This document shows, one piece after another, positions 32,131 to 39,386 of a DNA stretch of 64,000 nt. The stretch's first letter is position 1; each line of letters starts with the position of its first letter. The stretch spans positions 2,733,001 to 2,797,000 of the forward strand of contig NZ_CP060436.1 of assembly GCF_003590145.2 (NCBI RefSeq), written 5' to 3'. The notes under the pieces are model-generated. The model was not told the DNA's origin. It ran no database searches and saw only the letters and a list, made by a program, of their open reading frames with translations. The stretch is from Pseudooceanicola algae (lineage in GTDB: Bacteria > Pseudomonadota > Alphaproteobacteria > Rhodobacterales > Rhodobacteraceae). A program made the translations under genes and the position numbers.

Positions 32131-32715
32131 ATGACGGACAAGCTTTCCATTATCGTTGTCGAACCCGACCGGGACCGCGCGCTGCTGATCGTCGACAGCC
32201 TGCGCGAGGCCGGGGAATACGATATTCACGTCATTTCGGAACCCACGGGCATTGCCCGATCGATCCAGTCCCATAACCCCGACATGGTGCTGATCGACAT
32301 CGCCGACCCGACCCGCGACATGCTGGAGGAACTGACCCTGGCGACCGGCCCGCTGGACCGCCCCGTGGCGATGTTCGTGGACCAGTCGGACGACGGCATG
32401 ACCCGCGCGGCGATCGAAGCCGGTGTGTCCGCCTATGTCGTCGCCGGGCTGAAGGCCGAGCGGGTGAAACCCATCCTCGATGCCGCCGTCGCCCGGTTCA
32501 ACATGTTCCAGCGGATGCGCACCGAATTGGCCGCCACCAAGAAGGCGCTGGAGGAACGCAAGGTCATCGACCGCGCCAAGGGTCTGTTGATGAAGGCCCG
32601 TGGCATCGATGAAGACCAGGCCTATGCGATGCTGCGCAAGGCGGCGATGGACCAGAACCGGCGCATGGCCGATGTGGCCCAGGCCCTCGTCACCGCGGCA
32701 GGGCTGCTGGGATGA
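32131..32715 (+). CDS. nasT: NasT, ANTAR-domain antitermination regulator
   Basis: A 194-residue response-regulator-like protein. The receiver-like domain begins KLSIIVVEPDRDRALLIVD and has the phospho-acceptor-like region MVLIDIADPT. The C-terminal ANTAR RNA-binding domain (about 130-190) includes ALEERKVIDRAKGLLMKARG and DEDQAYAMLRKAAMDQNRRM. In the families studied, NasT promotes read-through of a leader terminator when nitrate or nitrite releases it from NasS. It overlaps nasS by ATGA. Its predicted RNA target lies at 34039-34115, just upstream of nrtA. Confidence 0.93.
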   Translation: MTDKLSIIVVEPDRDRALLIVDSLREAGEYDIHVISEPTGIARSIQSHNPDMVLIDIADPTRDMLEELTLATGPLDRPVAMFVDQSDDGMTRAAIEAGVSAYVVAGLKAERVKPILDAAVARFNMFQRMRTELAATKKALEERKVIDRAKGLLMKARGIDEDQAYAMLRKAAMDQNRRMADVAQALVTAAGLLG

Positions 32716-33893
32716 AGGCCGCAACCCTGTCCGTGGGCTTCATTGCCCTGACCGATGCCGCGCCGCTGATCGCCGCCCAGGAAATGGGATTTGCCGCCGA
32801 GGAAGGGATCGAGCTTGACCTGATCCGCGCGCCCTCCTGGTCCAGCCTGCGCGACATGCTGGTCTTTGGCCGGATCGAGGCGGCGCATATGCTGTCGCCG
32901 GTTCCGGTTGCCTCGGCCATGGGTCTGGGTGGCACCGGCGCGCCGATCTCCGCCGTGGCGGTCCTGTCGGTCAATGGCACCGTCATCGGGGTCAGTAACG
33001 AGATGGCCGCGCGGCTGGCCGGTGTCGGCCATGATTTCGCCTTCAACGATGCCCGCGCCGCCGGCGCCGCGCTGATCGCGGCCAAGGACCCGGCCCGCCC
33101 GCTGCGTATCGGCGTGCCGTTCCCATTTTCGATGCATGCGGAACTGCTGTATTACTGGCTGTCCGCCCTTGGCCTGCCCGCTCCACAAAGCGTGTCGATC
33201 CATACAGTCCCCCCGCCCCTGATGGCCCAGGCCATCGCGGCGGGGGAAATCGATGCCTTCTGCGTCGGCGAACCCTGGGGGTCGATCACCGTGGAAAACG
33301 GCGCCGGAGCCTTGCTGCTGCCGGGCAAGGCGATCTGGCAATTCGCGCCGGAAAAGGTGCTGGCCGTGCGCACCGACTGGGCCGAAAACGAAGACGCCCT
33401 GCTGGGCCGCCTGATCCGCGCGCTCTGGCGGGCCGGACGCTGGCTGGCGCAGCCCGCCTCGCGCAGCCTCGCCGCCGAGATCCTGTCGGCGCCCGATTAC
33501 CTGAACCTGCCCGCCGAAGTGCTGGACCGCGCGCTGACGGGGCGGCTGACGATTTCGTCCCGTGGCGAAATGCGTGACGTGCCCGGCTTCATCGGCTTTC
33601 ACAGGGGCACCGCGAATTTCCCCTGGCGCAGTCAGGCCGAATGGATCGCCCTGCAACTGGCCGCCCGCACCGGGCTGGATCGCGACCGGGCCATTCGCGC
33701 CGGACGGACGGCATTCCGCAGCGATCTTTACCGCACTGCGCTGGCCGGAACCGAAGCCGACATGCCCGGTGCCTCGTTGAAGGTAGAAGGCGGAGTGCAG
33801 ACCGAAACCTCCATCGCCTCCGAAGCGGGGCGGCTGTCACTGCTGCCCGATCAGTTCTTTGATGGCCGTATTTTTGAGCCGTACACTCCCTGA
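32712..33893 (+). CDS. nasS: NasS, cytoplasmic nitrate/nitrite sensor
   Basis: A 393-residue NrtA-like binding-fold protein with no signal peptide: it begins directly TLSVGFIALTDAAPLIAAQE. It aligns with NrtA (34169) through GFIxLTDxAPL, [26 protein letters not shown] and GEPWGSITVENGAG, but stays in the cytosol, where it can bind NasT. Translational coupling with nasT supports a one-to-one complex. In the established model, NasS sequesters NasT until it binds nitrate or nitrite. A small intrinsic terminator follows (33912-33936). Confidence 0.92.
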   Translation: MKAATLSVGFIALTDAAPLIAAQEMGFAAEEGIELDLIRAPSWSSLRDMLVFGRIEAAHMLSPVPVASAMGLGGTGAPISAVAVLSVNGTVIGVSNEMAARLAGVGHDFAFNDARAAGAALIAAKDPARPLRIGVPFPFSMHAELLYYWLSALGLPAPQSVSIHTVPPPLMAQAIAAGEIDAFCVGEPWGSITVENGAGALLLPGKAIWQFAPEKVLAVRTDWAENEDALLGRLIRALWRAGRWLAQPASRSLAAEILSAPDYLNLPAEVLDRALTGRLTISSRGEMRDVPGFIGFHRGTANFPWRSQAEWIALQLAARTGLDRDRAIRAGRTAFRSDLYRTALAGTEADMPGASLKVEGGVQTETSIASEAGRLSLLPDQFFDGRIFEPYTP

Positions 33894-33911
33894 AGCCCAT
33901 TTTGGGGGCGA

Positions 33912-33936
33912 TTTGGGGGCTCATCTCCCCAATTTT
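33912..33936 (+). terminator. Intrinsic terminator after nasTS
   Basis: TTGGGG (33913-33918) pairs with CCCCAA (33927-33932) around an eight-base loop, followed directly by TTTT. It lies 18 bases after the nasS stop and would separate the regulatory pair from the nitrate operon. Confidence 0.65.
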
Positions 33937-33957
33937 CGGCTTTTTCCCCGCCAGGCC

Positions 33958-33973
33958 TGACAGAACATTTGCA
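33958..33973 (+). promoter_or_regulatory. Weak sigma-54-like site before the nas leader
   Basis: TGACAG, five bases, then TTGCA. The -12 half is perfect and the spacing is canonical, but the -24 half has GA instead of the invariant GG. The position would start transcription near 33985 and give a leader of about 180 bases containing the antiterminator. Nitrogen-control promoters are expected here, so it is listed with low confidence. Confidence 0.3.
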
Positions 33974-34038
33974 ACGAATGCGCGAATCCGGCTTTTAGTC
34001 TGGTCAAGGCAGGCAATGGCGCCCACCTGAAGAATTCT

Positions 34039-34072
34039 CCCACCGATTGGGTTCGACTGAGCAAAGCCGCTC
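34039..34072 (+). promoter_or_regulatory. ANTAR (NasT) antiterminator RNA element
   Basis: P2 is clear: GAGC (34059-34062), hexaloop AAAGCC (34063-34068), GCTC (34069-34072). Loop positions 1 (A) and 4 (G) match the ANTAR-target consensus. An upstream P1 candidate, CCCA-CCGAT-TGGG at 34039-34051, contains ACCGAT, again with A and G at positions 1 and 4, though its closing pairs are imperfect. The 3' half of P2 (GCTC plus loop) is also the 5' arm of the terminator at 34063-34115, so the two folds exclude each other. Confidence 0.75.
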
Positions 34073-34115
34073 GACTCTCCGTTCATCTTGAACGGGGTCA
34101 GTCAGAGCGGCTTTT
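34063..34115 (+). terminator. Leader terminator controlled by NasT
   Basis: AAAGCCGCTC (34063-34072) pairs with GAGCGGCTTT (34105-34114). The stem continues with GACT/AGTC and CCGTTC/GAACGG around an ATCTT loop, giving over 20 pairs. It ends in TTTT at 34112-34115, 53 bases before the nrtA start. It shares its 5' arm with the ANTAR P2 hairpin. Confidence 0.85.
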
Positions 34116-34168
34116 CACGTTTGGCCCGGTAGGACACGAAATCCCCGGGCGCAACTACGGGGTAAATC

Positions 34169-35536
34169 ATGAAACGACTACTCGCTTCTTTCGCCATCAC
34201 GACCGCCATCGTCGCACCGGCCTCTGCCGAAATGCTTGACCTGGAAAAGGACGTGCTGACCTTCGGGTTCATCAAGCTGACCGACATGGCGCCGCTGGCC
34301 GTCGCCTATGAGCAGGGGTTCTTCGACGACGAAGGCCTGTTCGTGACGCTGGAAGCCCAGGCCAACTGGAAGGTCCTGCTGGATGGCGTGATCTCCGGAA
34401 CGCTGGACGGCGCGCATATGCTGGCCGGGCAACCGCTGGCCGCCACCATCGGTTACGGCACCGAGGCGCATATCATCACCCCCTTCTCGATGGACCTGAA
34501 CGGCAACGGCATCACCGTCAGCAACGAGGTCTGGGAGATGATGAAACCGACCCTGCCGGTCGGTGACGACGGCCTGGTAGAGCACCCGATTTCCGCCTCG
34601 GCGCTGAAACCGGTGATCGAGGACTTCAACGGTCGCGGCAAACCCTTCAACATGGGCATGGTCTTTCCGGTTTCGACCCACAACTACGAACTGCGCTACT
34701 GGCTGGCCGCCGGCGGGATCGAGCCGGGCTATTATTCCCCCGAAAACGTCACCGGCCAGATCGCGGCCGAGGCATTCCTCTCCGTGACCCCGCCGCCGCA
34801 GATGCCCGCGACCCTCGAGGCGGGCACGATCTCGGGCTATAGCGTCGGCGAGCCGTGGAACCAGCAGGCGGTCTTCAAGGGCATCGGCGTGCCGGTGATC
34901 ACCGATTACGAGCTGTGGAAGAACAACCCCGAAAAGGTCTTCGGCATCTCGGCCTCCTTCGCCGAGGAAAACCCCAATACCACCCTCGCCGTGGTCAAGG
35001 CGCTGATCCGCGCCGCGCAATGGCTGGACGAGAACGACAATGCCAACCGCGAAGAGGCAGTCGATATCCTGTCGCGCCCGGAATATGTGGGCGCGGACCG
35101 CGAAGTCATCGCCAACTCGATGACCGGCACCTTCGAATATGAGAAGGGCGACACCCGCGACGTTCCCGATTTCAACGTCTTCTTCCGCTACTACGCCACC
35201 CAGCCGTTCTATTCCGACGCGGTCTGGTACCTGACCCAGATGCGCCGCTGGGGCCAGATTGCCGAAGCCAAGCCCGACAGCTGGTACGACGAGGTCGCGA
35301 AATCCGTCTACAAGCCCGCGATCTACCTCGAAGCCGCGCGGATGCTGGTCGACGAAGGTCTGGTCGACGAGGCCGATTTCGCCTGGGACAGCGATGGCTA
35401 CAAGGAACCGACCCCGGCGGGCGATATCATCGACGGCATCGGCTACGACGGCCGCGCCCCGAACGCCTACCTGGAAAGCCTGCCGATCGGGCTGAAGGGC
35501 GACCAGATCGTCGTCGGCAACGAGATCCAGGGCTGA
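34169..35536 (+). CDS. nrtA: Nitrate ABC transporter binding protein NrtA
   Basis: A 455-residue solute-binding protein. The Sec signal [15 protein letters not shown] is cleaved after ASA near residue 20. The NrtA/CmpA fold follows: [50 protein letters not shown] and [19 protein letters not shown]. It shares these with cytosolic NasS, showing a common ancestry. The neighbouring nasA and nirBD make nitrate or nitrite the probable ligand. It is the first gene after the NasT-controlled terminator. A strong hairpin (35543-35602) follows. Confidence 0.93.
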
Positions 35537-36747: not shown

Positions 36748-38445
36748 ATGAGCATTCTCAAATTCGCCAACGTCTCGAAAAGCTTCGGGGAAGGCATCTC
36801 GAAAGCCGAGGTTCTGAAGAACATCAACCTCGAGGTGAAGGAAGGTGAATTCCTGGTTCTGCTCGGCTTTTCGGGCACCGGCAAGACGACGCTGATCAAC
36901 CTGATGGCGGGGCTGGAAAGCCCGACCAGGGGGGCGGTGACCTTCAAGGGCCAGCCGATCACCGGCCCCGGCCCGGAACGCGGCGTGATCTTCCAGAACT
37001 ATTCGCTGATGCCCTGGCTGACGGTCGCCGGGAACGTGCAACTGGCGCTGGATTCCGTCTTCCCGAAGATGTCGAAGGCCGAAAAGGCCGAACGCGTCGC
37101 CCATTACGTCGACATGGTCGGCCTGCCCCATGCCGCCAGCCGCCGCCCGGCGGAACTGTCCGGGGGGATGCGCCAGCGGGTCAACGTGGCCCGCGCCCTG
37201 GCCATGTCGCCCGAGGTGCTGCTGCTGGACGAACCGCTTTCGGCGCTCGACGCGCTGACCCGCGCCAACCTGGCGGACGAGATCGAACATATCTGGGACG
37301 CCGACAAGAAGACCTGCGTGCTGATCACCAACGACGTGGACGAAGCGATCATCCTTGCCGACCGCATCATCGCGCTGAATCCCGATGGCACCCTGGGCGA
37401 GGAATTCTCCGTCTCCATCCCGCGCCCGCGTGACCGGTCCGCGATGAACCACGACGCCGGTTTCAAGGCCCTGCGCGCCCGCGTCACCAACTACCTGATG
37501 GATGTCGGCATCCAGGCCAAGGCCGAGGAAACCCGCCACCTGCCCGACATCAAGCCCAACCATTCGGTCCCCACTGCCGTGGTCGACGCCCAGAAGAACC
37601 TTCTGGAACAGCGCTACCTGTCGTTCGAAGGGCTGCACAAGATCTATCCCACGCCCAAGGGCCCGCTGACCGTGGTCGAGGATTTCAACCTCAAGCTCAA
37701 CCGCGGGGAATTCATTTCGCTGATCGGGCATTCGGGCTGCGGCAAGTCCACGGTGCTGACCATGACCGCCGGGCTGAACGCGATCTCGAAGGGGGTCATC
37801 AAGCTGGATGGTTACGACGTGAAAGGCGCGGACCCGGAACGCGCCGTGGTCTTCCAGTCGCCGAACCTGTTCCCCTGGCTCTCGGCCAAGGAAAACGTCG
37901 CCATCGGGGTCGAACGTGTCTACCCCAAGGCCAGCATGGCCGAACGCCGCGACGTGATCGAATATTACCTTGAACGCGTCGGCCTTGGCGATGCGATGGA
38001 CCGCCCGGCGCATTCCATGTCCAACGGCATGAAACAGCGCGTCGGCATCGCCCGCGCCTTCGCCCTGTCACCCAAGCTGCTGCTGCTGGACGAGCCCTTC
38101 GGGATGCTCGACAGCCTGACCCGCTGGGAGTTGCAGGAAGTCCTGATGGAGGTCTGGTCGCGCACCAAGGTCACCGCGATCTGCGTCACCCATGACGTCG
38201 ACGAAGCCATCCTTCTGGCCGACCGCGTGGTCATGATGACCAACGGCCCGCAGGCCACCATCGGCAAGATTACCGACGTGAAACTGCCCCGCCCCCGCAC
38301 CCGCAAGGCGCTGCTGGAGCACCCGGATTACTATCTTTACCGCGAGCAGGTGCTGAGCTTCCTCGAGGAATATGAACATGGCGCCAAGGGCAAGACCGCC
38401 CAGAAGGCCGACGCCGCCAAACCGGACAGCCAGGAGGCCGCATGA
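36748..38445 (+). CDS. Fused double ABC ATPase of the nitrate transporter (NrtC/NrtD type)
   Basis: A 565-residue protein with two nucleotide-binding domains. NBD1 (about 1-250) has Walker A GFSGTGKTT (40-48), signature LSGGMRQR (about 136), LLLDEPLSALD, but TNDVDEA where the H-loop His should be (Asn195). NBD2 (about 285-540) has GHSGCGKST (about 328), LLLDEPFGMLD and a normal THDVDEA (His482), but a changed signature MSNGMKQR (424). The two changes fall in the same composite ATP site, so one site is predicted degenerate. The usual NrtC binding-protein-like tail is absent. A GTG at 36739, overlapping the nrtB stop, is an alternative start. Confidence 0.9.
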   Translation: MSILKFANVSKSFGEGISKAEVLKNINLEVKEGEFLVLLGFSGTGKTTLINLMAGLESPTRGAVTFKGQPITGPGPERGVIFQNYSLMPWLTVAGNVQLALDSVFPKMSKAEKAERVAHYVDMVGLPHAASRRPAELSGGMRQRVNVARALAMSPEVLLLDEPLSALDALTRANLADEIEHIWDADKKTCVLITNDVDEAIILADRIIALNPDGTLGEEFSVSIPRPRDRSAMNHDAGFKALRARVTNYLMDVGIQAKAEETRHLPDIKPNHSVPTAVVDAQKNLLEQRYLSFEGLHKIYPTPKGPLTVVEDFNLKLNRGEFISLIGHSGCGKSTVLTMTAGLNAISKGVIKLDGYDVKGADPERAVVFQSPNLFPWLSAKENVAIGVERVYPKASMAERRDVIEYYLERVGLGDAMDRPAHSMSNGMKQRVGIARAFALSPKLLLLDEPFGMLDSLTRWELQEVLMEVWSRTKVTAICVTHDVDEAILLADRVVMMTNGPQATIGKITDVKLPRPRTRKALLEHPDYYLYREQVLSFLEEYEHGAKGKTAQKADAAKPDSQEAA

Positions 38446-39386
38446 TGGACACCGCAATCGACACGACCGCAAGGACCTTCATCGAGGTCGCAGAAATCTG
38501 GGTGCCGGAAGGCGACCGGCTGGTGCTGGGCGAAGGCCACTACGGCGCGCTCGACACCTTCGCCGAAGCCTCGCGGCGCGAAAGCTTTGCGAAGGGCGAA
38601 GGCCTGCCGGGCAAGGCCTGGGCCGAAGGCCGCCCGGTGGTGCTGAAGGCATTCGACGGCTCTTATTTCAAGCGCACCGAGGCCGCGAAAGAGGCCGGTC
38701 TGACCGCCGCCGTCGCCGTGCCGGTGTTCTCCGGCAAGACGCTCAAGGCCGTTCTGGTGGTCTTCTGCGCCGATGACGAGGTCCGCACCGGCGCCATCGA
38801 GGTCTGGAAGGACGACGACGGCGTGCTGGTGCTGGACGATGGCTACTACGGCGCCGCAAAGCATTTTGAATGGGTGTCCCAGCACACGCAATTCCCGCGC
38901 GGTCAGGGCTTGCCAGGGGGTGTCTGGGCGTCGAAAACCCCGATCCTGATGCGCGATCTCGGTTCCGGCTACCGCTTTATCCGCGCCGAAAGCGCGGGCA
39001 AGGCCGGGCTGACCACGGGCATCGGCATGCCGATCCCGGTGCCGGGCGGAGAAACCTATGTGCTGGCGCTGCTGTCGGCCCTGGGCACCCCCATCGCCCG
39101 CCGGTTCGAGCTGTGGGATGCCCGCTCGGCCCGCGTCGGCAAGGGCGAACCCGCTGCCGTGCTGGTCGACGGGATCTGCGCCCGCGAAGGCAAGCTCTGG
39201 GTCGGGGAAACCGAAGACCCGCGCCGTGTCACCGCCTGGCAGGGGGTCATCGGCCGCGTGCTGGGCACCGGCCTGCCGGTTGTCGAGGCGGGCACGCCCG
39301 GCCTGACCGCCGGCTACGACACCCTGATCGCCCTGCCCATCCACATGGACGGTGAGCTTGCGCACATCGTCGCCTGGTATTGCTGA
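38442..39386 (+). CDS. Triple GAF-like repeat protein in the nitrate operon
   Basis: A 314-residue protein I cannot name. Three repeats of roughly 100 residues are visible. Repeat 1 has EVAEIWVPEG, FAKGEGLPGKAWAEGRPV and AGLTAAVAVPVFSG. Repeat 2 has EVWKDDDGVL, FPRGQGLPGGVWASKTPI and AGLTTGIGMPIPVPGG. Repeat 3 has FELWDARSA, WQGVIGRVLGTGLPVVEAGT and ALPIHMDGELAHIVAWYC. The GEGLPGxxW and AVPV elements resemble GAF domains. No signal peptide, enzyme motif or DNA-binding domain is seen, so a cytosolic sensor or assembly partner is possible. It overlaps the ATPase stop (ATGA) and precedes nirB by 15 bases. Confidence 0.7.
   Translation: MMDTAIDTTARTFIEVAEIWVPEGDRLVLGEGHYGALDTFAEASRRESFAKGEGLPGKAWAEGRPVVLKAFDGSYFKRTEAAKEAGLTAAVAVPVFSGKTLKAVLVVFCADDEVRTGAIEVWKDDDGVLVLDDGYYGAAKHFEWVSQHTQFPRGQGLPGGVWASKTPILMRDLGSGYRFIRAESAGKAGLTTGIGMPIPVPGGETYVLALLSALGTPIARRFELWDARSARVGKGEPAAVLVDGICAREGKLWVGETEDPRRVTAWQGVIGRVLGTGLPVVEAGTPGLTAGYDTLIALPIHMDGELAHIVAWYC

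Follow-up and report, generated by a model that had tools for sequence, protein, structure and literature searches.

A predicted three-hairpin leader of the NasT antitermination type before the nitrate operon of Pseudooceanicola algae, with related leaders before cysG

The question raised by the DNA between nasS and nrtA in Pseudooceanicola algae is whether it holds an RNA switch through which NasT could govern the nitrate genes and, if so, how that switch is built. The window, as we call the whole stretch of 64,000 nucleotides that was analysed, had been given a first-pass annotation which described a leader with two ANTAR-type hairpins, the second of them overlapping an intrinsic terminator. 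That description missed a hairpin at the upstream end, H1, and the leader has three (Table 1). Judged from the sequences, it is a real NasT-type antitermination leader of a known kind; what is new is the three-hairpin anatomy and the presence of such leaders before cysG. In our judgement the leader is likely to be a nitrate-responsive NasS-NasT antitermination switch of the three-hairpin kind. Published work is cited by PMC number, from parts of the texts.

Table 1. Regulators, leader elements and first structural gene of the nitrate locus in the window
Feature	Position	Strand	Description	Basis
nasT	32131-32715	+	response-regulator-like domain and C-terminal ANTAR RNA-binding domain	Pfam ANTAR, 79.6 bits
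nasS	32712-33893	+	NrtA-like nitrate/nitrite sensor	Pfam NMT1_2, 230 bits; translation
Putative promoter-like pair (weak)	33969-33996	+	TTGCAA-N16-GCTTTT; predicted transcript start ~34003, at the foot of H1	
H1	34007-34028	+	C:G-closed hexaloop AATGGC (34015-34020); 6 pairs with a 2x2 internal mismatch	fold
H2	34039-34051	+	CCC-ACCGATT-GGG; A1/G4, 7-base loop in the window	fold
H3, antiterminator hairpin	34058-34073	+	C:G-closed hexaloop AAAGCC (34063-34068)	
Intrinsic terminator	34063-34115	+	23 pairs, 3' end TTTT; 5' arm is the loop and 3' arm of H3	fold
nrtA	34169-35536	+	first structural gene of nrtA-nrtB-nrtC-GAF-nirB	

The earlier statement that nasT and nasS lie directly upstream is borne out by their Pfam matches. 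The start of nasT was read from the open reading frame, and the searches were run with 32134-32712; inspection of the NasS translation by eye gave no evident signal peptide. On the other side of the leader, the genes follow in the order nrtA, nrtB, nrtC (fused, with two ABC parts), a gene for a GAF-domain protein, and nirB. An adjacent nasT-nasS pair and nitrate assimilation genes downstream are the setting of a NasT-controlled nitrate leader, and both are found here. The GAF-domain protein (38442-39383, between the fused nrtC and nirB) matches Pfam GAF_2 and has no NCBIfam match at E<=0.001.

NasT is the only match to PF03861 (ANTAR) in the 4.09 Mb genome at E<=0.001, and it is found at 95% in Pseudooceanicola sp. 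HF7. Aligned to EutV (6wsh), it keeps R142, K143, K149, E160, Y164, M172 and R177, and is changed at K147 (to R), E146 (to D), N173 (to D) and R175 (to N). R142, K149, E160 and Y164 have been described as the contacts to G4, the fourth base of the hexaloop, and M172 as a plug (PMC8934654); the offset of 2 between the chain index and the numbering of that paper was worked out by us. The G4-contact residues and M172 are thus identical in NasT, and some residues that contact the backbone differ. Two of the three residues of a binding-dead EutV triple mutant also differ (D173 and N175 in NasT), and at these two positions NasR (4akk) carries the same D and N. An ANTAR protein with its RNA-contact residues, as belongs with an ANTAR-target RNA, is therefore encoded in the genome.

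The last hairpin had been placed at 34059-34072, with A1 and G4 in its loop, and these coordinates are right; the stem pairs GAGC (34059-34062) with GCTC (34069-34072), and a U-G pair, 34058/34073, extends it by one. Equally sound was the claim that its loop and 3' arm form the 5' arm of a terminator of more than 20 pairs. For the segment 34030-34120 the computed folding energy is -38.9 kcal/mol, where dinucleotide shuffles average -24.1 (z -4.79) and 0 of 200 are as stable. The terminator by itself was computed at -33.5 kcal/mol and H3 at -5.5 kcal/mol, so that, unaided, the terminator would win; and since the same bases serve in H3 and in the terminator 5' arm, the terminator cannot form together with H3. 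The mutual exclusion proposed for a NasT-type ANTAR leader is supported in this way at the level of sequence. The T run has four T only, and a strict terminator scan of the window did not list this terminator. No Rfam family matched at its gathering score in the window, and none at E<=10 in the region 33850-34200.

The smaller hairpins are a different matter. The hairpin with ACCGAT that had been proposed upstream exists and has A1 and G4, but its loop is of 7 bases: it can be drawn with three C-G pairs and a 7-base loop or with four pairs and a 5-base loop, and neither gives a closed hexaloop. It had been called an imperfect P1, and it does have a degenerate loop in the window and a near-canonical spacing to H3, but it is the middle hairpin of the leader. 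Folding, which had been suggested as a check, sets the terminator above all 200 shuffles, but leaves H2 and H3 alone at chance stability in the window sequence (z -0.03); across 57 related leaders, the H1-H3 linkers are likewise not above shuffles (mean z -0.6; p<=0.05 in 6 of 57). Folding of H2-H3 or of the H1-H3 linker in a single sequence was therefore rejected as proof. Only the terminator exceeds chance in a single sequence, and the case for the hairpins is a comparative one. H1 and H3 in the window are two hexaloops with A1, G4 and a C:G closing pair, as expected of an ANTAR-target RNA.

For the comparison, loci around nasT relatives were collected (80 from one search and 30 from a search of the family, the window included) and the stretches after nasS were taken. 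Such a stretch was obtained at 111 loci (L001 and L082 are the window); 74 passed a pattern for H3, 64 of them distinct, a 93% identity filter reduced these to 60, and three (L058, L064, L066) were moved to a second group. The resulting alignment, A1, holds 57 non-redundant nrtA-type leaders, each running from a point 66 bases upstream of the H3 loop as far as the end of the H3 stem. The selecting pattern required A1/G4 and a 4-pair stem in H3, so the H3 letters (57/57) are there by construction and prove nothing; H1 and H2 lay outside the selection. The second group (alignment A3) consists of 23 hand-chosen leaders from Paracoccus, Rhodobacter, Pseudotabrizicola, Tabrizicola-type and similar genomes, most of them picked from hits for which A1/G4 had been a condition, which makes the group's H1 and H3 letters largely a matter of construction; H2 was no criterion. 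Seventeen loci are in neither alignment (L039, L060, L067, L068, L070-L073, L075, L077, L078, L080, L081, L093, L104 and the cut loci L046 and L051), and among these, by eye, some third hairpins start with G or are absent.

Covariation had been named as the other check, and in the 57 leaders H1 shows it clearly, H3 and the terminator base slightly, and H2 not at all. Counted over the whole structure, double-change cells number 119, of which 115 fall in H1; column shuffles give 47 and none of 500 reaches 119, a contrast that is inflated by the relatedness of the sequences. When, as a control that retains the relatedness, the partners are shifted by 1-3 columns, the count is 15-35. All of these counts are of non-independent events. 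Both sides have changed in six of the seven aligned H1 pairs, one of which is GC in 22 leaders, CG in 13, AU in 7 and UA in 4, and in the H1 loop A1 is found in 56/57 leaders and G4 in 57/57. By these comparisons H1 is the best-supported hairpin of the leader, with its strongest covariation and its most conserved unselected loop. The H3 stem is paired in 94.7% of cells, with 4 double-change cells. At the terminator base, six of the seven basal pairs are kept in 54-57 of the 57 leaders and the seventh in 47, and the outermost pair shows five AU-to-GC double changes.

What H2 does is harder to read, and it is here that the most serious alternative arises. Possibly, though we think it rather unlikely, only H1 and H3 are NasT sites, making up the canonical pair, with H2 a spacer that shortens the distance between them by folding and touches no protein. 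The near-invariant A1/G4 of H1 would suit such a division of labour, as would the looser H2 (closing C in 55 of the 57 leaders, a purine at loop position 1 in 52 with A in 40, G4 in 52), its three pairs and 7-base loop in the window, and a stem in which no double change is seen among the 57. Loop letters, however, are needless in a spacer, yet a C:G-closed H2 with a purine at position 1, G4 and a loop of 6 or 7 bases is present in 39/57 leaders (18 fail) against 2.1 expected when the linker letters are shuffled, and the same test restricted to A at position 1 gives 30 against 1.2. In the second group H2 is moreover canonical: its loop has six bases, with A1 in 22/23 and G4 in 23/23, and four pairs of its stem are invariant (a possible fifth pair has 8 double changes and is unpaired in 10/23), so that these leaders carry three ANTAR-type hexaloops.

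The spacing also tells against a spacer. The linkers in the window are 10 nt between H1 and H2 and 6 nt between H2 and H3, both within the 5-12 bases of the eut leaders of Enterococcus faecalis, where linkers of 3 or 14 bases, or 20 extra bases, impair EutV antitermination (PMC3369931, PMC8934654). The 29 nt from H1 to H3 do not fit, and are also above the 2-25 nt allowed in PMC8164766, so it is improbable that H1 and H3 make up a standard pair by themselves. H2, which the two short linkers flank, is no strict hexaloop in the window genome. In the alignment, the distance from loop to loop is 27-29 bases for H1-H2 in 41/57 leaders and 20-22 for H2-H3 in 48/57.

A quite improbable variant is the two-hairpin model in which H2 is P1, H3 is P2 and H1 is irrelevant. 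It would draw on the H2-H3 spacing of 21, which is near the 17-20 bases that separate two adjacent C:G-closed hexaloops, with a purine at position 1 and G4, at 13 other alphaproteobacterial nasTS-linked loci (L125, L127, L146-L150, L153, L154, L156, L158, L159 and L161, from the distant loci L112-L166; L148, L153 and L161 have a further candidate upstream). H1, however, exceeds the other hairpins in covariation, no other unselected loop is as well conserved, and it recurs before cysG. By spacing, H2-H3 resembles the usual pair with H1 as the addition, the opposite polarity of pair and addition being the alternative. Three such hexaloops are listed at L116, L123, L130 and L165; a strict scanner for P1, P2 and terminator was positive at 9 of the 55 distant loci, and looser listings of hexaloops were read instead. 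In other alphaproteobacterial families, L138 and L128 each have, near nasT, a T run preceded by three strict A1/G4 hexaloops that are differently spaced.

Upstream of H1 the leaders carry a promoter-like sequence. The best-scoring -10 ends 13-18 bases 5' of the H1 loop in 46/57 leaders (range searched 9-40), and the mean score of the pair is 11.2 as against 9.7 in 50 shuffles, whose maximum is 10.1; a strict sigma-70 consensus scan of the window found no promoter. With the promoter-like pair at this distance, H1 would be the first hairpin to emerge as RNA. The inverted repeat adjoins the predicted -10 and might for that reason be taken for a DNA operator dyad at the promoter rather than an RNA hairpin, which we regard as very improbable, since its stem letters exchange freely among GC, CG, AU and UA while its loop letters stay fixed, unlike an operator. 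Least probable of all is that the terminator, sitting as it does between nasS and nrtA, only ends the nasTS transcript while nrtA starts separately below, given that its basal stem is common to terminator and H3 in nearly all 57 leaders, that promoter-like sequence stands above H1, that the arrangement recurs before cysG, and that a separate terminator-like hairpin already follows nasS. The latter (33913-33932, TTGGGGG-CTCATC-TCCCCAA, then TTTTC) was not flagged by the terminator scan and is possibly the nasTS terminator.

We would therefore return to the antitermination switch, which would operate as follows. Without nitrate, NasS would hold NasT, the long terminator would form, and transcription would stop 5' of nrtA. 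With nitrate or nitrite, NasT would be freed and loaded onto H1 and H2 as these leave RNA polymerase, and would then pass to H3 or stabilise it; with the bases of the terminator 5' arm occupied by H3, the terminator would be blocked and nrtABC-nirB transcribed. That this NasT acts on this leader, with H1 and H2 as recruitment sites, is what we infer, while its release, its binding to the leader and the order of recruitment before antitermination are carried over by analogy from the Paracoccus and EutV literature. The least certain step is the contact of NasT with H2 in the window genome, which is doubtful because of the three pairs and 7-base loop there.

In Paracoccus denitrificans, NasS-NasT dissociates on nitrate, and NasT, then an oligomer broadly consistent with a hexamer, binds the nasA leader (PMC3795266); mutation of the hairpin HI, 137 bp upstream of nasA, severely cuts the activity of a nasA promoter fusion (PMC5424462). 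For EutV, dimers have been proposed to touch one hexaloop at a time, first the recruitment hairpin and then the antitermination hairpin (PMC8934654). ANTAR antitermination is a two-hairpin system in the cited literature, and the passage of the dimer from the first to the second hexaloop is still a model there; by analogy, the anatomy found here fits the EutV order with one extra recruitment site. A more tentative extension, which we hold as possible, is a three-site relay of Rhodobacteraceae in which oligomeric NasT would be caught by H1 at the start, move along H2 and reach H3 in time, and in which a second copy of the leader before cysG would co-induce siroheme synthesis with nitrite reductase. 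A natural family of three-hairpin leaders, with the middle site canonical or degenerate, would be a set of variants for testing hairpin-to-hairpin transfer and the role of the NasT oligomer.

The P. denitrificans nasA leader shares with ours the regulators, the gene order and hairpins between nasS and the structural genes; it is unlike in operon content, and in that one paper describes two hairpins, HI and HII, and the other an unspecified series, with no mention of three hexaloops in the parts of the texts cited (PMC3795266, PMC5424462). In a P. denitrificans strain in our set, L077, the leader is, by eye, without a clear T run; relative to the next start codon, its hexaloops AACGGC, AATGAT and GACGAT lie at -155, -130 and -107, and the published HI (PMC5424462), going by its coordinates, would coincide with the last two of these. 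Several Paracoccus leaders (L068, L070-L073, L077) show by eye no clear T run after the competing stem, and termination in them may not be classical intrinsic.

The eut leaders of E. faecalis have A1/G4 hexaloops, a last hairpin inside an intrinsic terminator and the same ANTAR contact residues (PMC3369931, PMC8934654), but two hairpins with their 5-12-base linker, to which the window leader adds a third upstream. The nasF leader of Klebsiella oxytoca is likewise an ANTAR antitermination leader of a nitrate operon, responsive to nitrate and with C:G-closed A1/G4 loops, but its NasR is a one-component NIT-ANTAR sensor acting on a two-hairpin RNA, in contrast to the separate NasS and three hairpins of the window (PMC7496416). 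In Bradyrhizobium diazoefficiens, NasT antitermination extends beyond the nas operon, to nosR among others, but the targets are denitrification and other genes, and cysG is not named in the parts cited (PMC6759348). Our search of the literature, which covered parts of main texts outside subscription and no supplements (notably that of PMC3369931), found no three-hairpin ANTAR leader and no NasT leader before cysG.

A covariance model built from the 57 leaders, R1, scores the window leader at 67.9 bits (E 4.4e-13 within its own genome); the next match, at E 0.02 (G000:C1:98514), was dropped, since by eye it is no convincing leader. In the family, R1 matches at E<=0.001 in 92 of 295 genomes, and 92/92 have NasT at E<=7e-30, while 28 further genomes with NasT have no R1 match by the model search; the leader search covered 295 genomes under stricter filters and the NasT search 394, the two sets being matched by us through common handles. 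Among the 22 genomes of the genus, 19/19 nasT carriers match at E<0.001, and the three without NasT reach at best E 0.28-0.48. A sample of 270 genomes of the class, under stricter filters, gave matches at E<=0.01 in only four, two of them outside the family, and the R1 form of the leader is therefore mostly one of Rhodobacteraceae. A second model, R2, with three canonical hairpins, was set aside, being weak outside its own group (window E 0.53).

The third R1 match in the window genome (G000:C1:281893-281966, or L169:1501-1574; E 0.12) ends about 60 bases 5' of cysG, the siroheme synthase gene (512 bits to NCBIfam NF007922, whose cut-off is 400). Seventeen of the 22 genomes of the genus match cysG at E<=1e-100, and in 16 of these R1 matches at a distance of 53-71 bases 5' of the gene (E is <0.001 in 11, 0.0016 in one and 0.12-0.93 in four; the places were compared by us); the exception, G961, has a partial cysG match. 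By eye, H1, a middle hairpin, H3 and a terminator are present in most of these sequences, and a rough scanner finds the H1-H3 pair in 11/16 and a strict H2 in six. Outside the genus, similar leaders stand before cysG-like starts in five genomes of the family (L204, L206-L209) and before a uroporphyrinogen methyltransferase-like start in G088 (L205), all read from translations. In the family sample an R1 match is upstream in only three of 30 cysG loci (L215-L217), so that such a leader before cysG is frequent within the genus but seldom seen outside it. With these leaders, the NasT regulon as predicted would take in not only the nitrate operon but also the nitrite reductase cofactor. We also considered that cysG might acquire a separate leader only where it is not linked to the operon, but gave this up: in G957, G958 and G192, cysG and the nrt leader share a contig and cysG has a leader all the same. 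In the cysG leader of the window genome, by comparison with L274, the H3 arm is broken and the T run interrupted, and this copy, to judge from its letters, may have escaped control.

Two arrangements of the nitrate locus itself may be added. In L212 (G192, also of this genus) the operon is divergent from nasT, its nrt leader being on the opposite strand and upstream of that gene. At L038:8458-8908 the matches to nrtB (residues 3-80) and nrtC (471-559) are truncated and merge just 5' of nirB, as if most of the transporter had been lost, with the leader retained.
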